Positions 19,127 through 28,506 of a DNA stretch of 42,654 nt are shown one piece after another. This DNA comes from Bacteroidales bacterium (GTDB lineage Bacteria > Bacteroidota > Bacteroidia > Bacteroidales > UBA932), in contig JAFYTP010000022.1 of assembly GCA_017558775.1 (NCBI GenBank), positions 1 to 42,654 on the forward strand, read 5' to 3'. The notes beneath the pieces are model-generated. The model ran no database searches. It was given only the letters and a program-made list of their open reading frames with translations, and had not been told where the DNA came from. The position numbers were made by a program, and so were the translations under genes. Position 1 is the first letter of the stretch, and each line of letters starts with the position of its first letter.

Positions 19127-19138
19127 GTAAGAAAAAAC

Positions 19139-19164
19139 GTCATTCCGGGCTTGACCCGGAATCT
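19139..19164 (+). repeat. 26-base palindromic repeat, copy A (intergenic)
   Basis: This copy begins GTCAT and ends ATCT, with an 8-bp perfect stem ATTCCGGG/CCCGGAAT around a 5-base loop. Its last two bases form part of the TAG stop codon of the SGNH hydrolase gene. On the minus strand the stem is followed by GACG and six T, so it probably also acts as a terminator for the nine-gene lipid operon. It shares its ends and length with the copies at 25037-25062 and 27801-27826. Confidence 0.8.
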
Positions 19165-20245
19165 ATTTATGTGCCTTGCGCAAAGCCTTCTTTATCACCG
19201 GCAGCACCAAATCCACATACCGCTTCATTCCCAAATCCGTCAGGTGGATGGTGTCGGCGGTGGATTCCCCGTCGGGCTCCGTCATCTTGGCGGCCGGGAT
19301 GAAGTAAATCTGCTTCTCGCCCTGCTTCTTCAGGCGCTCGAACAGGGCCTTCTGCTCGATGTTCTTCTCCTCCACTTCCCTCCGGATCTCGCTATCGAAC
19401 AGCGTGTGCGGAAAGATGACATCCTCGATGAAAATGACCGGCACGTCGGGGTGCGCGTCGCGGAGGATGCGGAAGAATTCCTCACCGTGTTCCTTGATCA
19501 TCGGCGCATGGGCATTCGGTGCGTAATCCAATACGAACACGCCCGGATCGGGCACGGAGGCCATCAGGCGGGCGATTTCCAGATCCAGCAGGGCGTTCCC
19601 GCTGAATCCCAAGTTGATGACTTCGCGGTCCAGTGCGCGGGCGATCATGTTCGTATGGGCCATGCCCGGACGGCTCGCGCTGCACCCCTGCAGGATGCTT
19701 GTGCCGTACATCACGATCGGGCGCTCCTGCTTCGGGCTGTTGACGCGGGAAGGCTCCAGGGTCGCCCCCTCATCGACACCGATTTCGAGTTTGTCGATGC
19801 CGTCATACAGCGACAGATAAAGCATGTACTCACGGGGTTCGGCGGTCATGTTCTTGACCAGGCAGTCTGTCGATGTCTTCTCCCGCGAAGGCCGTCCGAC
19901 GCCAGCGGGTTTCCATTGACCATCGACCAAAATATAGAGGTCCAGCCCTCGGACGCCGGTCGGGTTCATGTTCGACAGCCAGCTCTCGTAGGTCGATGTC
20001 CACCGCGCATGGATGGAGGTGGAGTTCGACCGGAACCGGATGTACAGGCCGGCACTCTGGGTGCCCAGCCGCCACACGGGAGCGCGGGAAACGCCTTCCA
20101 GCTCCGCGGGCAGACGCTGATAGCGGGTTTTCGTGGCCTCGGAAGCCTTTCCATACACATGGAAGGCCGATGCGTCGGTGAATACCTGGGCGGAAAGCGT
20201 CTGGCCCAGCAAGGCCAGCGCGAGGAGGATGGTCAGTTTCTTCAT
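19163..20245 (-). CDS. Secreted SGNH/GDSL hydrolase with GxDLY domain
   Basis: This encodes 360 residues with a signal peptide ending near LSAQ (residue 20). An N-terminal beta domain with the GLDLY signature (100-104) is followed by an SGNH hydrolase domain: the nucleophile Ser183 in GTSILQG, a GFSGN block (213-217) with Gly and Asn, a further NAH block (244-246), and D331 with H334 in DTIHL. All catalytic residues are present. These two-domain enzymes act as carbohydrate or lipid esterases in the periplasm or outside the cell; the substrate is not known. It is the last gene of the envelope-lipid operon, its ATG sharing one base with the upstream TAA. The stop codon is partly built from palindromic repeat copy A. 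Confidence 0.87.
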   Translation of the reverse strand: MKKLTILLALALLGQTLSAQVFTDASAFHVYGKASEATKTRYQRLPAELEGVSRAPVWRLGTQSAGLYIRFRSNSTSIHARWTSTYESWLSNMNPTGVRGLDLYILVDGQWKPAGVGRPSREKTSTDCLVKNMTAEPREYMLYLSLYDGIDKLEIGVDEGATLEPSRVNSPKQERPIVMYGTSILQGCSASRPGMAHTNMIARALDREVINLGFSGNALLDLEIARLMASVPDPGVFVLDYAPNAHAPMIKEHGEEFFRILRDAHPDVPVIFIEDVIFPHTLFDSEIRREVEEKNIEQKALFERLKKQGEKQIYFIPAAKMTEPDGESTADTIHLTDLGMKRYVDLVLPVIKKALRKAHK

Positions 20246-21315
20246 TATGACAGCGGTCCTGCGTAAATCTTCAAGACAATGGGACGGATATTCTCCGGGA
20301 CGGCGTTCAGATGCGCCTCAAAGGCGGCTTTTTCCGCCTCCGTATAGCCGCCGGATTCGGTCCCGGTCAGCATATCGTAAGCAATGCGGTTGTTCGGCCA
20401 AATCTTGTACCCGGCCTGGATGCGACGGTCGATGAGGTTCGCCGTCTCGCGGCAGAACGCGTTGAGCGGAAGCTCCTTCCAAGGCGCGAGATCCTCCGGT
20501 TTCACAGGCTCGCACACCGTGTAATGCACCCGGCCCTTGGGCTGGGTGACGCCGGCGAGAATGCTGTGCAGGTCTTCGCCGGGCCGTTTCTCGTAGTGCC
20601 CGTCGCGCTCCAGGGCGGCCAGTTCCGCCGCCTTCAGCACATCGCAAGGCTCCCACTCATAGGACACGACCAGCGGGACGATATTCAGGTCCACAATGTC
20701 CCCCGCCATGGAGAACATCTTGATGATGCCCTGGTCCGTCGCGTCCACCCCGTCCTTGGTCCGCCCGTTGCGCTGGGCAATCCAGATCGACTCTCCCTTT
20801 TCCGTGATGGTCCAGCGGATATACTCCGACAGGCGGATCGAACTCCGCAGGAACTCCCGCGGGGAGGAAACGGTCGTCGGCCTTTCCACCTTAAACATCT
20901 TGTTGGACTTGCCAAAATCCACCACCAGGCCGCCCTGCATCAGGTTGGCCCCGAAGGTGATCTCGGAAGGCTTGAGCCCCGCGCGGTGCAGCAGCACCTG
21001 GAAGAAAGTGGCGTCCAGCGTGATGTCGCGGTGGTTGGAGACGAACAGGTAGCTCTTGGCCGGATCCAGCCGCTCCATGCCTTCCACGGTCACGCCGTCC
21101 GTCGATTTCTTCATCACGGACTCGACCACCGTCGTCATGAACCGGACCTGGAACTCCTCCACGGTATGGCAGGAGGTCAGCAGGGAGGCCACCGCCTCGA
21201 ACGGCTGGTCCGGGAACAGGTAGCCGCACACCACCCGGAACTCCGGATAGGAGACGATCCGCTGCATCGCGGCAGGGATCTCCGCGTCGGTATAGGGTCG
21301 GATATCGTCAAACAT
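20245..21315 (-). CDS. LPLAT-fold acyltransferase (PlsC-like)
   Basis: This encodes 356 residues with the lysophospholipid acyltransferase fold: SNHRDITLD as block I, a FGKSNKMFKVER region, and QRNGRTKDG in the place of the FPEGTRS block. The spacing in block I is H then five residues then D if the last Asp is used, or HxD if the first is, rather than the usual HX4D. Such variants occur in a Bacteroidetes family annotated as 1-acyl-sn-glycerol-3-phosphate acyltransferase-like. It probably attaches an acyl or aryl-acyl group to a lipid acceptor at the inner membrane. Its start overlaps the PaaK-like ligase gene by 8 bases. Confidence 0.82.
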   Translation of the reverse strand: MFDDIRPYTDAEIPAAMQRIVSYPEFRVVCGYLFPDQPFEAVASLLTSCHTVEEFQVRFMTTVVESVMKKSTDGVTVEGMERLDPAKSYLFVSNHRDITLDATFFQVLLHRAGLKPSEITFGANLMQGGLVVDFGKSNKMFKVERPTTVSSPREFLRSSIRLSEYIRWTITEKGESIWIAQRNGRTKDGVDATDQGIIKMFSMAGDIVDLNIVPLVVSYEWEPCDVLKAAELAALERDGHYEKRPGEDLHSILAGVTQPKGRVHYTVCEPVKPEDLAPWKELPLNAFCRETANLIDRRIQAGYKIWPNNRIAYDMLTGTESGGYTEAEKAAFEAHLNAVPENIRPIVLKIYAGPLS

Positions 21316-22606
21316 GCTTCGGTCGTTTATCGATGAATTTCACGGGCTTGCGGGATTTCGCAGGATAGAGGACGGCGGCGATTTCCGGGGCGGGATGGAT
21401 CTCGATGCGCGGCGCCACGCGGATGCGGGAGCGGAAACGGTCCTTGAGGTCCTTCACCGCGTCGAACTCGGGCTCGTACTTAAGGCTCAGCTTCACGATG
21501 ACATCGTCCGTGCCGGCGTCGCTTTCCTCCACCACGACCACATAGTTCTCGACATAATCGGTATTGTCCAGCACGTCGTTGACTGCCGGCGGATACAGGG
21601 TGGTACCCTTGAGCTTGATCATGTTGTTCTTGCGGCCCACGAGCGGAGTCAGGCGGTACGACCAGCGGCCGCACTGGCACTGCTCGGTCACCTTCGCCGC
21701 CATATCGCCCGTGCGGAAGCGCAGAAGCGGCATTCCCTCTACGCCCAGGGTGGTGATGACGATCTCGCCCACTTCCCCGTCGGGTACCGGCATATTGTCC
21801 TCGCCGATGATTTCCACGATGATGAGTTCCGGATGGACATGCCCGCCGCAGCCGTAGGGACACTCGGAGAAGGTCGCGCCCATCTCGGTGGAAGAATAGG
21901 TCGCGAAAAGGTCCACGTCCCATTTCTCCTTGATCCGCTTGCCAAGCAGGTTCAGCTCGAAATGCTGGTCCCGCATGCCCTCGCCGATGCCGATGATGCG
22001 CCGCACCGAGGAGTTCTTATAGTCGATGCCGTGCTCCTCCGCATACTGAATGAGGCGGAGAATGAAGGACGGGACGCACATGATCGTATCCGGCTTCAGA
22101 CGCAGGATGGTATCCCACTGTAATTCCGGAATACCGTTGCCCACGCGGATGATGCTGGCGCCCAACGACCTGATACCCAGGAAGTAGGCCAATCCCGCCA
22201 TGAAGCGCTTGTCGATGGTGGTCATCAGCTGGACAATGTCCCCGGGCTTCACCCCGGCGCAGGCGAACGACTTCTTCTCGTTATAAGCCAGCCGGTCCAG
22301 GTCCTTGTCCGTGCAACCGAAGGTCACGGGATCCCCGAGGGTGCCGGAGGTGGTCACGTAGTCCACGATCTTCTCCTTCGGACAGCACAGGAAATCGTCG
22401 TTGAACAGCTGCAGGTCCTTCTTCTCGGTGAAGGGGATCTTCACCAGGTCCTCCAGCGTCTTGATCTTCGTAATGTCGATATGGTAGCTGTCGAACATCC
22501 GCTGATAGTACTTCGAATGTTCCGCCAGGTACCGCAAGGCCTCCGCCAGGAGACCTTCCTGATAGGCCTTGATAACCTCGGGCCTTTCAAACTCAATGTC
22601 TGCCAT
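21308..22606 (-). CDS. Phenylacetate-CoA ligase-like AMP-forming enzyme
   Basis: This encodes 432 residues of the adenylate-forming superfamily, closest in layout to PaaK. It shows a TSGTLGDPV phosphate-binding loop near residue 86, YSSTEMGATFSECP, then the FRTGD and GRKNNMIKLKGTTLYP motifs of the hinge and C-terminal domain. A cysteine cluster (CPYGCGG and CQCGRW) is typical of PaaK-like proteins and may bind a metal. It should activate a carboxylic acid, likely aromatic, as an acyl-adenylate and pass it to CoA or a carrier protein. In aryl polyene-type clusters such ligases load the aromatic starter; here that role is inferred from neighbours. It overlaps the esterase gene by 14 bases. Confidence 0.88.
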   Translation of the reverse strand: MADIEFERPEVIKAYQEGLLAEALRYLAEHSKYYQRMFDSYHIDITKIKTLEDLVKIPFTEKKDLQLFNDDFLCCPKEKIVDYVTTSGTLGDPVTFGCTDKDLDRLAYNEKKSFACAGVKPGDIVQLMTTIDKRFMAGLAYFLGIRSLGASIIRVGNGIPELQWDTILRLKPDTIMCVPSFILRLIQYAEEHGIDYKNSSVRRIIGIGEGMRDQHFELNLLGKRIKEKWDVDLFATYSSTEMGATFSECPYGCGGHVHPELIIVEIIGEDNMPVPDGEVGEIVITTLGVEGMPLLRFRTGDMAAKVTEQCQCGRWSYRLTPLVGRKNNMIKLKGTTLYPPAVNDVLDNTDYVENYVVVVEESDAGTDDVIVKLSLKYEPEFDAVKDLKDRFRSRIRVAPRIEIHPAPEIAAVLYPAKSRKPVKFIDKRPKHV

Positions 22607-23411
22607 AATCTATCTCTTCTATCCAATCGAGGAAGGCAGCCTGCCACTGGGCCGTCTCTTCCGTAAACTTCTCTTTATCAGCGCCGAACCCGTGCCCGCC
22701 GACATGGTATCGAACATACCGGTGCGGTACGCCCTTTTCCGTGAGCGCGGCGTCCAGGAGGTCCGAATTCCGGGGATCCACCACCGGATCGTCGTCGCAG
22801 CGCAGCAGGAACACCGGCGGCGTGTCCGGCCGGACATGCCTTTCCAACGACAGCGAATCCCGCAACGCGTGGTTGCCCGTATGCCCGTCCCCCAGCAGGC
22901 CTCTCCGGGACCGCTTGTGGGTGCAGGGCTCCCGCATCGATACAACCGGATATACCGCGGCGGCAAAATCCGGGCGGAGGTCGATGCCATCGGCCTTTCC
23001 GGTGAAATCCGTCTCGAAGAACTCCGCGGCCGTCATCACCAGATGTCCGCCGGCGGAAAAGCCCATTACGCCCACCGGGCCGTCAAACTGCTCTCGGACC
23101 AGCCTGATTGCTCCTTGCAGGTCGGCGATCATATCGGGATGGCGGTTGCCGCCGAAAAGGGCCCGCAGATGGAAAGCGAAATTCCACCAGCCGCCTGTCC
23201 GGTAATGCAGCACATAAGCGGCGATTCCATTGGAAACGAGCCATTCAGCCACCAGGCTTCCCTCCCCTTCCTTGTCCAGCCAGAAATAGCTGCCGCCCGG
23301 GCACACGACCACCGCGGCCTTCGGCGTGCCTTCCGGCTGGAAGACCTTCACCGTCTGGGCCCGTAGGACCGTGCAGAGCAGCAAGAGAACTATGACTAGA
23401 AACTTCCTCAT
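22593..23411 (-). CDS. Secreted alpha/beta hydrolase (esterase, BD-FAE/AXE-like)
   Basis: This encodes 272 residues with a signal peptide ending near LRAQ (residue 19). An alpha/beta hydrolase core follows: the oxyanion segment CPGGSYFWL, nucleophile Ser119 in GFSAGG, an Asp in DDDPVVDPRNS and a His in VGGHGFG. The MREPCTHKRSRRGLLG stretch resembles secreted acetyl-ester and xylan-ester hydrolases. It is probably an esterase of the periplasm, perhaps releasing or remodelling the exported lipid. The ATG at 23411 is chosen because it overlaps the upstream stop as ATGA and gives a clean signal peptide; a TTG four codons earlier is weaker. A TATATTTG just upstream is coding in the preceding gene, and its promoter role is doubtful. 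Confidence 0.85.
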   Translation of the reverse strand: MRKFLVIVLLLLCTVLRAQTVKVFQPEGTPKAAVVVCPGGSYFWLDKEGEGSLVAEWLVSNGIAAYVLHYRTGGWWNFAFHLRALFGGNRHPDMIADLQGAIRLVREQFDGPVGVMGFSAGGHLVMTAAEFFETDFTGKADGIDLRPDFAAAVYPVVSMREPCTHKRSRRGLLGDGHTGNHALRDSLSLERHVRPDTPPVFLLRCDDDPVVDPRNSDLLDAALTEKGVPHRYVRYHVGGHGFGADKEKFTEETAQWQAAFLDWIEEIDYGRH

Positions 23412-26400
23412 CCCTTCCCGCAAATATAGGTCAAATTCTCCGGAACGCCCGCGCAGCGGCTGGCGGTCAAATACTTTTCTTCATCCTCCTCATAGGCCGT
23501 CACCTGCATCTCAGGATGCGTGAGGGCTACCAGGAGGGCGTAAACGCCGCAGCCAGCCTCCTTGATTGTCATTTCCGTACCCGTGAGGGCATCGACCTGA
23601 GCGAGGGTTTCCGGGGTCAGGACGCGGCGGCATTCCGCATCGGCATCATGGCCCTTGTACAAGTATTGGTAACGGACGTAAGTCGCTGTGTAGGCGGCGG
23701 TTTCCCGCTCCTTCCGGATACGGTCGTACTCCTTCTGATACATGTGGCGGACCTCCCGCGTGAAGGCCGCGAGGTTGTCATCGGCAGGAACCTCAAAGCG
23801 TTCCCCGACCTCCAGGTACAGCCCGGCCTTCCGGAGCAGGAAATCGTGCTTGGGCAGCGCGTAGCCGAAACCGTGGATATACAGCGGCAGGACGGGCAGT
23901 CCCAGTTCACGGGCGGTGAGGAAGGCGCCCCGGTGGAACCGCTGGATCTTGCAGTCCGGGCTCCGCGTCCCCTCCGGGAAAATGACGATGGAATACCCCC
24001 GACTCACGAGGTCCTTCATGTGATTCAGGTTCTTCTCGAGCCCGTCCATCACCGGATAGAACTCCGCCTTGCGGATCAGGTAGCCGTAGAACGGACTGTT
24101 CCAAACCCACTCGTTCGTTAGCAGAATCACCTTCGGATGCAGGGCGAGAATCGGCAATACATCAAAGTGCGACTGATGATTGCAGATGTACACCGCCTGC
24201 TTGGAGAAATCCTCCCCATGTGGGTTCGAGAAGGTGTACGGGCAGCCCGGGATGGCCTTGATGGCCAGGCGCGCGGTCTTCATCAGCGCCGTGCGATACC
24301 TCTCCCGTTTCCGCGGCGTCGAACCGCCCAGGAACAGGAAGAAGGTCCATACGGTCAATGCCAACATCGCCACGAGGAATACGATGAAGATGTAGCCGGT
24401 ACGCAGGGATCGACCCAAGGTCCAGGCCACCTTCCGCGGCTCCCCCTTCTTCCGGGTGAGGAAGCGGAACACCAGCGGCGGCAGATAATAGGCCATCACC
24501 ACGACGGTGAACATGCCGATGACGGTCACTTCCGCCAGCGACCGCAACGCCGGATGGCGGGCGACGATAAGCGCGCCGATGCCGATGAACATGATGAGGG
24601 CCGATAGCACCACGGCGTTCTTGAACGACCGTAGAATCTTCTTCCCGGTCGCATACTCGTACATCAGCCCTTCCGTCATAAAAATCGTGTAATCATCCCC
24701 CTGACCGAAGATGAAAGTCGCGAGGATGATATTGACGATATTGAACTGCATCCCAAACAACCGCATCGTCCCGAGAATCCACAACCAACCCACCGCCAGC
24801 GGCAGGAACGAAGTGAGACTCAGCTCAATGCGGCCGAACGACAGCCACAGGAAGAAGAACACAATCAGACTGCAGATCAGGCCGATCCGGTCGAAATCGT
24901 CCGACAACAGCCTTACCAGCGTCCCGGACACATCGTCCACGGTGAAGCAGAACGCCCCCTCCGGCAACGCTGCGCGAATAGATTCTATGTCATTCCGTCC
25001 TTTAGATGGCCGATCGGGGTCGGCCATGACGTTATCGTCATTCCCGGCCTGACCGGAAATCTCATTCATTTTCAAGTAATTGACCAACTGCACCTTGTCC
25101 TCGCCGGGCAGGAACATCGCCTCCCCGATCGTCTCCGTCAGCGGCGCGAAATACTCCACCTCCTGTACCGCCCAATCCGTATCCAGCACATCGAAGAACG
25201 GCTGGAAAGCATGGGCCGTGAACCCGGACTTCAGGCCGGCATCGATGATCCGGTCGTCCAGGTCGGGATGCGCCTCCAGAAAAGCGTTCCAGCGGGCGAT
25301 GCGTTCCGCCTGCGCCTTCTTGGAAGGCAGGAAGGTGCCCAGACCGGACGCATCCTTCACGAGCGGTGCGAGCGCCTCGTTGCACTGTAGCGCCTCCTCC
25401 ACCGTCGCTCCAGAAGCGACCACATACAGTGTAGAAGCCCCATCTTCAGCTGCCCCCATCCCCTCCAGGATGGCGAACCCACGGGACTGCTCCTCCGTCA
25501 TGTAGTTGATGTGGTGCATGTCCGCATCGAAGGAGATGCCCCGGCTCAGCCAGCCAAGGATGGCGGTCAGGATGAGGAAGCCGATGAAAACGTACTTCCG
25601 GGCTTTCGGGGAGAGATGGATGTTCCGATCGAGGTCCAGCTTGACCGTGTTCCGGGGCCGGTTGGCCGCCGGGACGAAGACCGGAAGGAAGATCAGCACG
25701 AAGAAGATGGTCCCCACCAGCATCATCGCGCCGATGAATCCGAAATCGTGCAGGGCCTCGGCCTTCAAAAGCAGCAGTGACAGGAAAGCGCCCACGGTGG
25801 TGATGTTGCCCACCAGCAGCGGGTTCACCTGATCCGCGAGGGCCTTGCGCTTGTCAGGCTGGTATTTCAAATGGTCCACATAGTGGAGCGGGTAGTTCAC
25901 GGCGATGCCAATGATCATCGACCCGATGCCCAGGACGATCAGGGACACCGAGCTCTTGAACAGGGCGATAATGCCGAGGGCGAACAGCGCGCCGGCGAGG
26001 ATGGACACGAGGATCCAGAAGACATCGGCAAAGCGCTTATAGCTGAACCAGAGGACGATACAGATGAGGATGGCGGCAAGGGCCAATGCCAGGAAGGCGT
26101 CTTTCTTGATGCGGGAGGCGTTCCCCACGGCCACTTCCGGGCCGCCGGTGGAGGTGATGGTCACCTCCGGGAACTGCGTCGCCGTCCGGGCCTTGACGGT
26201 ATCCAGCAGCGCCACCAGTTCCGCGTTCCGGCCCGATTCGCTGCCGCCGAAAGGAGAATGGAACAGGACCACGCCGGTACGGCCGTCTTCCGTGAACAGG
26301 AAGCCGTCCTCCACCCGGCTGCGGGAGGTGGGATTCAGGGTTTCCAGCCGCTGCAGGACCGGGGAGAAGAGCCCCAGGGGGTCGCTGCGCAGATACGGGC

Positions 26401-26899
26401 CGGAGAAGCCCGAAGCCATCGAATAGAAGCTGCGGCGGTTCTCCTCCATCTTTTCATCGACATAACCCGGGACGGCGAGGAGCGAGTCCATCCGGGCGTA
26501 ATCGGCCTCCGTCAGGAAATAAGGCCAGTTGCCGCGGATGAAGCCGAAGACCTCCTCGACGGCGCCGGCATCGGTCGATACCTGCAGGTCGGGAACGAGG
26601 GCGGCTGTGTCGGCATCGGCCCAGATGTCGCCGAAGGCCTGCATCGCGTCCATCAGCGCTTCCGGGTTGTCCTCCGCTCCCTCGAAGAAAACGACCATCC
26701 GGTCCTGTCCGAGGCGGTTGTAAACGTCGGAATACCGCTTGCTTTCCTCGCTCTGCGGCAGGAAGGCGGTAATGTCCTCCTCATAGTCCATGTGCAGAGC
26801 TGAGAGGGCGCAAAAGCCCATCAGCAGGCCCAAGATGCCCGCCGCCAGCCCCTTATGGGCCGACAGGAAATCGTAGATATGCAGGACGACCTTCTTCAT
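23408..26899 (-). CDS. MMPL/RND lipid exporter fused to an LPLAT acyltransferase and a C-terminal Rossmann-like segment
   Basis: This encodes about 1163 residues. Residues 1 to about 860 form an MMPL-type transporter: helix 1 (SAHKGLAAGILGLLMGF), a periplasmic loop, a five-helix bundle, a middle hydrophobic segment, a second loop, then another bundle. From about 890 to 1095 an acyltransferase domain has NHQSHFD (about 907-913, the HX4D motif) and FPEGTRS (about 973). The last 55 residues (EAGCGVYALLVALTHP, then YEEDEEKY) look like the SAM-binding half of a methyltransferase and stop before the fold is complete. In aryl polyene-like clusters such proteins move the lipid towards the outer membrane. 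Residues about 612-638 are encoded by two palindromic repeats (25004-25062). The ATG at 26899 overlaps the GT2 stop; the 16 codons before it are rejected. Confidence 0.87.
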   Translation of the reverse strand: MKKVVLHIYDFLSAHKGLAAGILGLLMGFCALSALHMDYEEDITAFLPQSEESKRYSDVYNRLGQDRMVVFFEGAEDNPEALMDAMQAFGDIWADADTAALVPDLQVSTDAGAVEEVFGFIRGNWPYFLTEADYARMDSLLAVPGYVDEKMEENRRSFYSMASGFSGPYLRSDPLGLFSPVLQRLETLNPTSRSRVEDGFLFTEDGRTGVVLFHSPFGGSESGRNAELVALLDTVKARTATQFPEVTITSTGGPEVAVGNASRIKKDAFLALALAAILICIVLWFSYKRFADVFWILVSILAGALFALGIIALFKSSVSLIVLGIGSMIIGIAVNYPLHYVDHLKYQPDKRKALADQVNPLLVGNITTVGAFLSLLLLKAEALHDFGFIGAMMLVGTIFFVLIFLPVFVPAANRPRNTVKLDLDRNIHLSPKARKYVFIGFLILTAILGWLSRGISFDADMHHINYMTEEQSRGFAILEGMGAAEDGASTLYVVASGATVEEALQCNEALAPLVKDASGLGTFLPSKKAQAERIARWNAFLEAHPDLDDRIIDAGLKSGFTAHAFQPFFDVLDTDWAVQEVEYFAPLTETIGEAMFLPGEDKVQLVNYLKMNEISGQAGNDDNVMADPDRPSKGRNDIESIRAALPEGAFCFTVDDVSGTLVRLLSDDFDRIGLICSLIVFFFLWLSFGRIELSLTSFLPLAVGWLWILGTMRLFGMQFNIVNIILATFIFGQGDDYTIFMTEGLMYEYATGKKILRSFKNAVVLSALIMFIGIGALIVARHPALRSLAEVTVIGMFTVVVMAYYLPPLVFRFLTRKKGEPRKVAWTLGRSLRTGYIFIVFLVAMLALTVWTFFLFLGGSTPRKRERYRTALMKTARLAIKAIPGCPYTFSNPHGEDFSKQAVYICNHQSHFDVLPILALHPKVILLTNEWVWNSPFYGYLIRKAEFYPVMDGLEKNLNHMKDLVSRGYSIVIFPEGTRSPDCKIQRFHRGAFLTARELGLPVLPLYIHGFGYALPKHDFLLRKAGLYLEVGERFEVPADDNLAAFTREVRHMYQKEYDRIRKERETAAYTATYVRYQYLYKGHDADAECRRVLTPETLAQVDALTGTEMTIKEAGCGVYALLVALTHPEMQVTAYEEDEEKYLTASRCAGVPENLTYICGKG
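25004..25030 (-). repeat. Palindromic repeat, copy D (inside the MMPL gene)
   Basis: Read on the minus strand it begins GTCAT and ends ATCT, 27 bases, with an 8-bp stem ATGGCCGA/TCGGCCAT and a 6-base loop. Its core matches copy C at 27801-27826 apart from the loop. It is read through in frame and encodes VMADPDRPS in the exporter. Confidence 0.8.
25037..25062 (+). repeat. Palindromic repeat, copy B (inside the MMPL gene)
   Basis: This is a 26-base copy beginning GTCAT and ending ATCT, with stem ATTCCCGG/CCGGAAAT carrying one mismatch and the loop CCTGA. It lies 6 bases from copy D in the opposite orientation, so the two form a composite. A further GTCATTCCG half-site at 24989-24997 suggests the composite is longer. 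In the exporter it encodes EISGQAGND. Confidence 0.8.
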
Positions 26900-27606
26900 C
26901 GGCCGAGAAGCATCCGGGGATAGCCGTACACCAGCGCCAGGACACACAGGACCGTGTTCAGGACGCTGATCCGGAAAAAGTCCGCGAAGGGACGGAAATG
27001 GGTGACGCGGTCCTCGGGATAATACACCCGGACCGGCACGGGAACGAGCCGCAGGCCCTTCCAGGCGGAGAAGACGAGGAGGGTCAATTCTGCCTCGTAG
27101 CGAGCCGTCAACAGCTTCAGGGAAGGGAGGTTTTCCAGCGGATAGACGCGGAAACCCGTCTGGGTATCAGGGAGTTTCCGCCCGGTCTGGACGGTGAACC
27201 AGAAGTTCGAAAACTTGTTCGCGAAGGTGCTGCCGGAGGACATTCCGTCCGCCGCGATATTTCTGCTGCCGATGACGAGCGTCTTCTCCCCCGCCGCGGC
27301 CACAAGGGCCGGGATATCGTCGGGATTGTGCTGTCCGTCCGCGTCGATGGTCAAGGCAAATTTGTAACCCAGGTGACGGGCTTCTTCAAATCCGGTCTTG
27401 AGGGCGATCCCCTTCCCGCGATTCTTCGGATGGCGGACAAGGTGGATATCAAGCCCTTCAAGCGATTGGGCGGTCTCATCCGTGCTTCCGTCATCCACGA
27501 CGATGACGGGAAGGCCGTTGCGCAGCACGCCGCGGACCACGTCCGCGACGGTCCTTCCGTTGTTATACGTCGGAATTACGGCACAGATATGACGGGGATC
27601 GGTCAT
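26896..27606 (-). CDS. GT2 family glycosyltransferase (DPM/ApeJ-like)
   Basis: This encodes 236 residues of a GT-A fold family 2 enzyme: CAVIPTYNNG at the N-terminus, VVDDGSTDET for nucleotide binding, DADGQHNPDD as the metal-binding DxD region, and TGFRVYP further on. The C-terminal 35 residues (RISVLNTVLCVLALVYGYPRML) form a membrane segment. It resembles dolichol-phosphate-mannose-synthase-like enzymes and the glycosyltransferases found in aryl polyene clusters. It probably transfers a sugar onto a lipid at the cytoplasmic face of the inner membrane. It overlaps both neighbours by 4 bases as ATGA, which indicates tight translational coupling. Confidence 0.87.
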   Translation of the reverse strand: MTDPRHICAVIPTYNNGRTVADVVRGVLRNGLPVIVVDDGSTDETAQSLEGLDIHLVRHPKNRGKGIALKTGFEEARHLGYKFALTIDADGQHNPDDIPALVAAAGEKTLVIGSRNIAADGMSSGSTFANKFSNFWFTVQTGRKLPDTQTGFRVYPLENLPSLKLLTARYEAELTLLVFSAWKGLRLVPVPVRVYYPEDRVTHFRPFADFFRISVLNTVLCVLALVYGYPRMLLGR

Positions 27607-27983
27607 GCTTCCACAGTGAGGCTCATCTTGGCGCAGAGCACTTCCCCATTCAAGACCTCCACCGCCCAGCTCTCCCCCTCTCCGGAGATGTTGAACCGCA
27701 GTTCCATTCCCTCCTCGGGAATCACCGGACTGGTGAACTTGATATTCTTCGCCGCCACGAGTTTGACGGGCACGTCATGGCCGAGCTCCTCCTTTTTTCC
27801 GTCATGGCCGACCTGATCGGCCATCTGCCCGATCGCCTCCAGCGCCATCTCCACCAGACACACCCCCGGCGTAATGGGATACCCCGGGAAATGCCCCTTG
27901 TACACAGGGCTTTCCGGAAGGAGGCGGAGCGTCACGCCCGACCCATCGACAGAAACGGTCTCGTAGAGGATTCCTCGCAGCAT
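27603..27983 (-). CDS. Hotdog-fold 3-hydroxyacyl-ACP dehydratase-like protein
   Basis: This encodes 126 residues. The stretch YKGHFPGYPITPGVCLVE carries the FabZ/FabA-type active-site pattern HFPxxPxxPGV with its histidine. The later KNIKFTSPVIP matches the strand pattern of FabZ/ApeI-like hotdog proteins. It should dehydrate 3-hydroxyacyl-ACP intermediates or act as a related thioesterase in the lipid pathway. Residues about 52-70 (reading QMADQVGHD, then ELGHD) are encoded by palindromic repeat copy C and a half-copy, and are hydrophilic at a position where relatives have a short helix. ATG 27983 is chosen because it follows the LolA-like stop by one base; a TTG five codons earlier would overlap that gene. 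Confidence 0.85.
   Translation of the reverse strand: MLRGILYETVSVDGSGVTLRLLPESPVYKGHFPGYPITPGVCLVEMALEAIGQMADQVGHDGKKEELGHDVPVKLVAAKNIKFTSPVIPEEGMELRFNISGEGESWAVEVLNGEVLCAKMSLTVEA
27801..27826 (+). repeat. Palindromic repeat, copy C (inside the dehydratase gene)
   Basis: This 26-base copy begins GTCAT and ends ATCT, with a perfect 8-bp stem ATGGCCGA/TCGGCCAT and the loop CCTGA. A half-copy GTCATGGCCGAG starts at 27774. Both are translated in frame within the dehydratase gene. The coding strand is the complement, the opposite relative orientation to copy D in the exporter gene. Confidence 0.8.
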
Positions 27984-27984
27984 C

Positions 27985-28506
27985 TTATTTCTTTTCAAAG
28001 AGTTTGGGGTCCACCGGCAGGTTCGTCTTGATGTCCTTGAATTCCAGCAGCGTCCAGTCGCCGTCGGGCGAGATCAGAAGGGCGGAGCGGATCTGGAGGG
28101 ACTTTTTATCGGCATGGACGATGATTTCGCGGAAAAGGGACTTGAGGTCCCGGCGGACCGGCACCAACTTCACGGCGAGGTCGTCCCCTTCCAGGGCCGT
28201 CGCGGTGAAATCCTTGTCCGTCGGCATGCGGAAACGGCGGCCGCGGATGGCCAGTTCCCCTTCGGAGACGAAAACGCTGCTGAAAGGCTTTTGAACCTCC
28301 CAGCGAAGGCGGTCCGGCGAAGCAAGAACCATCCGACCCTCGCTCACGAGGTCCTTCGTCATCATCGCGCTGTGGCGGGTCTGGACAAAGGAAAGCTGCA
28401 CCGTCTCATAGGTGTTCGCCGCCTTGAGCCGGGCCAGGATATCGTTCTGGGCCGACGCGGAAAGGGCCAGCAGGGAGCAGGCCAATATGAGGATCCAGCG
28501 CTTCAT
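27985..28506 (-). CDS. LolA-like outer-membrane lipoprotein carrier homologue
   Basis: This encodes 173 residues with a signal peptide ending near ALSASAQ (residue 19). The body has the LolA/LppX-like half-barrel pattern: YETVQLSFVQTRHSAMM, then SEGRMVLASPDRLRWEVQKPF, then a C-terminal LISPDGDWTLLEFKDIKTNLPV. It is a periplasmic carrier; in aryl polyene-type clusters the LolA-like protein is thought to take the lipid product across the periplasm rather than lipoproteins. The operon context supports that reading. The ATG at 28506 overlaps the upstream stop as ATGA; the 16 codons before it lie inside that gene. Confidence 0.87.
   Translation of the reverse strand: MKRWILILACSLLALSASAQNDILARLKAANTYETVQLSFVQTRHSAMMTKDLVSEGRMVLASPDRLRWEVQKPFSSVFVSEGELAIRGRRFRMPTDKDFTATALEGDDLAVKLVPVRRDLKSLFREIIVHADKKSLQIRSALLISPDGDWTLLEFKDIKTNLPVDPKLFEKK

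Follow-up and report, generated by a model that had tools for sequence, protein, structure and literature searches.

CGTC-tagged palindromic repeats within and between genes of a Bacteroidales genome and its relatives

Short palindromic repeats carrying an unpaired CGTC tag have been grouped in a superfamily of repetitive extragenic palindromes (REPs) which, in the available part of its description (Di Nocera, De Gregorio and Rocco 2013, PMC3733652), includes the Rickettsia palindromic elements (RPEs) RPE-4 and RPE-6 and the Neisseria dRS3 elements (CGTC-1), and is found in five phyla, Bacteroidetes among them. According to the same text, these repeats have a CGTC tag (sometimes TGTC or CCTC), a stem of 8-9 bp, a loop of 4-5 nt and a tail of three unpaired bases that is mostly, not always, CCA; most REPs are intergenic, pairs with the tags outside (HH) predominate and pairs with the tags inside (TT) are rare, and a dedicated transposase is lacking. 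The RPE treated in the accessible portion of PMC2229807 is a longer and different element (105-146 bp), and the guanylate kinase of R. conorii is stated there to stay active with an RPE insert; the accessible portion of PMC6006769 describes a Bacteroidetes subclass of Y1 genes with atypical flanking hairpins and, within some of these genes, in-frame REPs. In a literature search of titles and the openings of abstracts (few subscription journals), no report of protein-coding palindromes in Bacteroidales was found. Here, repeats of about 26 bases with the ends GTCAT...ATCT were followed from a 42,654-nt Bacteroidales contig (JAFYTP010000022.1, assembly GCA_017558775.1; the whole stretch is called the window below) to the rest of its genome and its genus. 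By tag, stem and habit the elements are CGTC REPs, distinct in their inward-facing pairs, their CT tail and their large intragenic share, and very probably they are short single-hairpin mobile repeats spread by an enzyme encoded elsewhere. A previous sequence-only reading of the window had reported a palindromic repeat family, which is confirmed, and had taken it for a copied folded element recalling RPEs, which is supported and apt given the placement of RPE-4 and RPE-6 in the CGTC superfamily; it was not aware of a named family with these ends in Bacteroidales, and so did not know of the named superfamily of CGTC REPs.

The genome containing the window (G000; 2.63 Mb in 128 contigs, 87.7% complete) was searched with the loose pattern GTCATNNC..GNNATCT, which gave 127 matches against none for the reversed control, a decisive excess. 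Among the 100 matches listed (of 127), 80 were judged to belong to this family and the rest to represent another repeat or chance; the 27 beyond these comprised the four copies of the window and 23 that were not seen. A strict scan, requiring GTCAT and ATCT ends and a stem paired at 7 or more of its 8 positions, was applied to the window and to 60 stretches taken from around the listed places (289,777 nt in total, covering 91 of the 100 listed places; the nine omitted resembled chance matches or the other repeat), and recovered 84 true palindromic copies. The family is thus not confined to a few copies, and the commonest 26-mer was also present in 42 of 81 congeners, at 1-72 copies each (reversed control zero in all 81). 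Within the window by itself, the ends pattern carries little weight: six matches were found relative to a shuffle mean of 1.96, with one of 100 shuffles reaching six, and two of them (19414 and 27602) are not palindromes and were not recovered by the strict scan.

The base preceding GTCAT was C in 70, T in 9 and A in 5 of the 84 copies, and C in all four copies of the window, giving the tag CGTC. The stem consists of 8 bp, the first pairs of which were A-T and T-A in every copy (largely imposed by the scan), and the loop of 5 nt (68 copies) or 6 nt (16 copies), with a minority loop CTCGA in six. Fourteen stem sequences were distinguished, the commonest being ATTCCGGG (30 of 84). The tail CT, itself imposed by the scan, was followed by C, A, G and T in 32, 28, 23 and 1 copies, respectively; this single T, together with a G at position -2 in just 2 of 84 copies, could point to a target preference. 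Neighbouring copies less than 150 bp apart formed 16 pairs, 15 of which were arranged minus-then-plus with the tags facing inward and spacers of 0-82 nt, and one of which was tandem. Tags-inside pairing was less strict in other species, where, among the matches listed and by eye, 5 such neighbours had the tags inside, 7 were tandem and 1 had the tags outside. The first 50 kb of pSymB, examined as a check on orientation, contained one pair, with the tags outside, the arrangement called usual in the available text of PMC3733652. A second repeat in G000, for example GTCATTCCGAGCGAAGCGAAGGAATCT, has the same ends and an imperfect core (contig and position C14:7955, C42:7652, C73:20684 and C98:15330).

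Genes were called by codon usage with a caller written for this analysis and unvalidated, which placed 50 of the 84 copies wholly within predicted genes, 18 across a gene edge and 16 between genes. As 92% of the examined DNA was called coding, genes hold fewer copies than chance would give, even though the majority of copies are intragenic. The 50 inside copies occupy 36 sites in 34 genes, and Pfam domains were recognised in 32 of the 34 host proteins, which include Mur ligase, MurB, cysteinyl-tRNA synthetase, a class I isoleucyl-type synthetase, DHFR, ATP synthase gamma, rRNA adenine dimethylase, Fe/Mn superoxide dismutase, TruB, SufE and an RNA methyltransferase. One coding copy adds about nine residues (for example VIPGLTRNL, SHSGLDPES or EIPGQARND), and the reading frame of the inside copies runs on into known domains, which lends independent support to their in-frame position. 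Where both frames were open, antisense copies used frame 1 over frame 0 (17 versus 3, p 0.003), and sense copies used frame 0 over frame 1 (17 versus 8, p 0.11, not significant). The copies gather at the 3' ends of genes and in protein stretches that vary in alignments, and to judge by the alignments the inserts may lie in surface loops. Of the 18 edge copies, 13 were antisense at the 3' end of a gene with an overlap of exactly two bases, the AG of the element completing a TAG stop, and two more overlapped by one base, so that 15 of 18 overlap the stop codon by 1-2 nt in antisense orientation.

The four copies of the window and the genes that they touch are as follows.

Copy A, 19139-19164, plus strand (tag C at 19138): CGTC REP at the end of a minus-strand GDSL lipase-like gene.
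Copy D, 25004-25030, minus strand (tag base at 25031): 27-mer with a 6-nt loop; one half of the D/B pair, tags inward.
Copy B, 25037-25062, plus strand (tag base at 25036): 26-mer with one stem mismatch; the other half of the D/B pair.
Whole insert in the MMPL-type gene, 24980-25062, no strand assigned: B, spacer, D and a broken half-element; outer limits approximate.
Copy C, 27801-27826, plus strand (tag C at 27800): inside a FabA-like gene; minus-strand reading ..QMADQVGHD..
Gene ended by A, 19163-20245, minus strand: GxDLY plus GDSL lipase-like protein, 360 aa (Pfam PF14606, PF14607).
Host gene of B and D, 23408-26947, minus strand: MMPL-type protein with a C-terminal acyltransferase domain (Pfam PF03176, PF01553).
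Host gene of C, 27603-27998, minus strand: FabA-like domain protein, 131 aa (Pfam PF07977).

The positions, ends and lengths (26, 26, 26 and 27 bases for A, B, C and D) reported for these copies in the sequence-only reading were all recovered, as was its account of the stems, which pair at 8 of 8 positions in A, C and D and at 7 of 8 in B. It was also right that three of the four copies lie in genes and in frame: B, C and D are within open reading frames (ORFs), and A abuts a stop codon outside the gene, its terminal AG completing the stop TAG of the lipase-like gene. Folded as single-stranded DNA and compared with shuffles, A and C gave z -4.8 each and D z -3.6, with B weaker (z -2.3). Copy A is terminator-like on the minus strand, with the hairpin followed by GACGTTTTTT (a T-run on the mRNA strand). 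D and B are separated by six bases (GTTATC), and the broken half-element in the same insert is GTCATTCCGTCC (24989-25000). A half C-type element, CGTCATGGCCGA, adjoins copy C at 27773-27784, and in L238 a similar half-unit is tandemly repeated in the same gene. An Rfam scan of the window returned two tRNAs only.

Comparison with the same sites in close species (Bacteroidales metagenome-assembled genomes are the nearest named relatives, several labelled as from ruminant forestomach; 74-85% protein identity in the relatives compared) revealed empty sites, shared copies or the place taken by a different class of REP, and the sites differ even between close species. At the junction orthologous to copy A, all three relatives compared (G003, G085 and G080) are empty and have a TAA stop instead. 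The D/B insert adds a net 60 nt, in frame, with respect to L002 (G085), L003 (G003) and L004 (G080), and the pair was seen in G000 only, among the rows compared; at this site L237, L238 and L232 carry one antisense-type REP, L233 another class, and L230, L231, L234-L236 and L246 none. The REP of L232 has extra in-frame sequence in its loop, about CATCCTTCGACAAGCTCAGGAA. Copy C is common to 5 of 10 close named relatives (L233 and L235-L238; 74-84% identity in the neighbouring gene), is absent from L230, L231, L232, L234 and L246, and was not seen in five more distant homologues aligned. With this distribution, copy C has been inherited or reused within a circle of near relatives and is not deeply conserved. 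The site requires at least four changes on the neighbouring gene's tree, and the close pair L232/L237 differs.

For the intragenic sites outside the window (34 sites, each compared with G085, G003 and G080 with fragments joined), an orthologue of at least 55% identity was required, leaving 87 of 102 site-genome windows usable and 15 not. One or more of the three relatives had a CGTC copy at 16 sites and a class-2 REP (our label for repeats of the form GTCATT(T/C)CGA...ATCT) at 7, and at 20 sites at least one had a stretch shorter by 15 nt or more with no REP by either of two scans, a category in which some cases (AtpG in G085 and G080) resemble decayed REPs. In G085, none of 29 windows had a CGTC copy, in agreement with the absence of the commonest 26-mer from its genome. 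Class-2 seeds numbered 14 in 6.5 kb of site windows relative to 10 in 222 kb of flanking DNA, a 48-fold enrichment, although the 14 fall in seven sites and a Poisson value overstates their independence. The junction before a sufE-like gene holds a single CGTC copy in G000, a CGTC pair in G003, a pair of the other class in G080 and nothing in G085. At the second MurB site, L146 (G085) and L147 (G080) carry a third kind of palindromic insert, in frame and longer (about 100 nt), with arms near GGGTATAGGGTCTGAAACC and apparently in opposite orientations; a glycosyltransferase site (L185) has a somewhat similar peptide, a candidate likeness. A decayed-looking remnant was seen in one case, at the site in the alpha-2-macroglobulin-like gene of G085 (L127).

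The stems compensate between copies, as had been noted from the window, and also at the same locus across species. In 26 comparisons of 20 copies (same site and orientation, plus site C with G003; G080 was omitted there for its changed end), 184 stem pairs were unchanged, 21 were changed on both sides and still paired, and 3 were one-sided or broken, so that both-sided changes made up 21 of the 24 changed pairs. At least one double change occurred in 9 of the 20 copies, and the loop was kept in 6 of the 13 comparisons with double stem changes. This compensation fits either arm-to-arm templated repair or overwriting by other members of the family, between which the data do not distinguish.

Within the genus, presence of the commonest 26-mer changes at least 18 times on the best IleS tree of 75 congeners, many branches of which are weak; a supported clade unites G000 (72 copies), G003 (69), G080 (45) and G085 (0). 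The scan for a mobiliser covered transposase genes of the Y1/RAYT type (REP-associated tyrosine transposases). An apparent absence of Y1 genes from G000, based on Pfam PF01797 (E 0.001), was a false negative, as a genus-specific profile found four. RAYT profile matches were present in 68 of 81 genomes; of those 68, 41 have the 26-mer, compared with 1 of the 13 that lack a match (Fisher p 0.0005, with relatedness ignored); seen the other way, Y1/RAYT genes occurred in 41 of 42 repeat-bearing genomes versus 27 of 39 others, or 38 of 42 versus 22 of 39 when matches to PF01797 were counted. One element lies about 170 nt from a Y1 match in L102, and one about 1.35 kb off in L103. The Y1-like ORFs of G000 at L206 1088-2592 and L208 1325-2495 are bordered by inverted repeats of their own (CCAACCCGACATTCGCAGCGCAA and TGAGGATGA types). 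One RAYT subclade (alignment A3, with two of 39 Y1 rows left out as short) was tried as mobiliser across the 81 genomes and rejected as neither necessary nor sufficient: G000, richest in repeats, has no close member (best E 4e-37), and G085, free of repeats, has one (E 2.5e-171).

We favour the reading as mobile CGTC REPs, in which insertion would be more or less random and selection would keep harmless events, whether right at a stop codon or in a tolerant loop where the copy serves as linker; tolerant sites would then resemble hot spots. The hairpin could stay paired while its sequence shifts if one arm templates repair of the other in replication or if relatives overwrite copies, and the mobilising enzyme may be a RAYT-group HUH/Y1 tyrosine transposase that acts in trans, the least certain step. 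Several observations weigh against this account. Target duplications, sought by eye at the compared sites, were not established, and the limits of the inserts are blurred by the replacement of native residues as well; the stop-free frame of the 50 inside copies is built into the gene caller, and some inside copies are so near a called gene end (L053 begins 8 residues in) that they may not belong to the true gene. None of the 39 Y1/RAYT loci scanned had CGTC elements on both sides, other inverted repeats adjoin the gene in the three of the four Y1-like genes of G000 that were examined, and G085 combines 10 RAYT matches with no commonest-form copy. Mobilisation in trans by RAYT (Y1/HUH) transposases of the same genome is accordingly held as a tentative proposal: co-occurrence of the 26-mer with RAYT profile and PF01797 matches speaks for it, and against it stand the unflanked RAYT genes, the distribution of the A3 subclade and a test of independent pairs on the IleS tree, which has little power and was not significant (mean 2.5 pairs for versus 1.0 against, median p 1). 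The idea that the palindromes are due to chance or to a conserved protein motif, for which the weak statistic within the window is the sole argument, is refuted by the 127 matches versus none in the control, by the unrelated host proteins and by the occurrence of copies in both orientations and several frames.

As to how sequences change at an occupied site, quasi-palindrome correction, in which a mutation in one arm is transferred to the opposite arm as the DNA replicates, is plausible at a level just short of probable, given the predominance of both-sided changes and the minority loop CTCGA kept at L046+ and L065 despite a flipped stem pair; L049, L081, L046- and the first MurB site differ in both stem and loop, more like replacement. 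Active replacement of the resident hairpin, for example by a REP-specific nuclease cut and repair from another REP, appears unlikely; the concentration of class-2 seeds at the sites, the four states of the sufE-like junction in four species and the stems swapped at shared loci would all fit it, but whole-unit replacement is at odds with the loop retained in 6 of 13 swapped-stem comparisons, and a few tolerant sites with independent insertion would yield the same enrichment. A broader conjecture, also unlikely and somewhat more speculative, is that in this genus junctions between genes and loops of proteins serve as hairpin exchange sites, where an enzyme acting in trans on single-stranded DNA would recognise the GTCAT...ATCT ends and swap cores, so that REP classes would compete and stretches of the proteome would be rewritten lineage by lineage, with hairpin pairing conserved and not the peptide. 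It is doubtful that the shared sites arose by homologous exchange of alleles between species instead of by inheritance or repeated insertion: the changes at site C and the difference between L232 and L237 could be read this way, but different REP classes at one site would be left unexplained. Quite improbable is a spread selected for a role in transcription termination or mRNA stabilisation, as suggested by the T-run following copy A on the mRNA strand and by the 15 edge copies that overlap stop codons in antisense, since 50 of 84 copies lie inside genes and, by eye, just two edge copies out of 18 (A and L041) have an A-run ahead of the tag, equivalent to a T-run on the mRNA of the gene that they close.

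With these elements, protein-coding palindromes are extended from Rickettsia to a species-rich Bacteroidales genus in which dozens of conserved genes carry linkers of selfish DNA. The copies show where DHFR, ATP synthase gamma, tRNA synthetases and other proteins tolerate an insertion, and, with 0-72 commonest-form copies in close species and insertions shared or lacking, natural pairs with and without an insert are at hand that can serve the questions raised in the available part of PMC3733652, namely what enzyme mobilises CGTC repeats and whether copies are still being added.

Compared with the CGTC REPs as described in that part of the paper, the elements share the unpaired CGTC or TGTC tag, the 8-bp stem starting with AT, the 5-nt loop (in 68 of 84 copies), complementary stem changes, intragenic copies and the lack of a linked transposase (here at the Y1/RAYT loci checked), and differ in the CT tail instead of the usual CCA, the 6-nt loop of 16 of 84 copies, the tags-inside orientation of 15 of 16 pairs and the intragenic position of most examined copies. 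With RPE-4 and RPE-6 they share, on the same source, the placement in the superfamily and in-frame insertion in unrelated genes, and the RPE mode of life recurs here as in-frame insertion in conserved genes that relatives have without it; the host is a Bacteroidales member, not an intracellular alphaproteobacterium. The dRS3 elements of Neisseria are CGTC-1 elements too, but according to the available text lie mostly in large clusters in that genus. GTAG REPs and REPINs with their RAYTs are likewise tagged hairpins, often paired and very uneven in copy number between species, whereas the tag here is CGTC and not GTAG or GTGG, no RAYT gene is flanked by the elements and the Y1-like genes adjoin other hairpins. 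The class-2 repeats share the GTCAT...ATCT ends, the sites and the tags-inside pairs (at the G080 junction); they have a longer imperfect core and, in the relatives, occupy 7 of 34 sites where G000 has the CGTC type.

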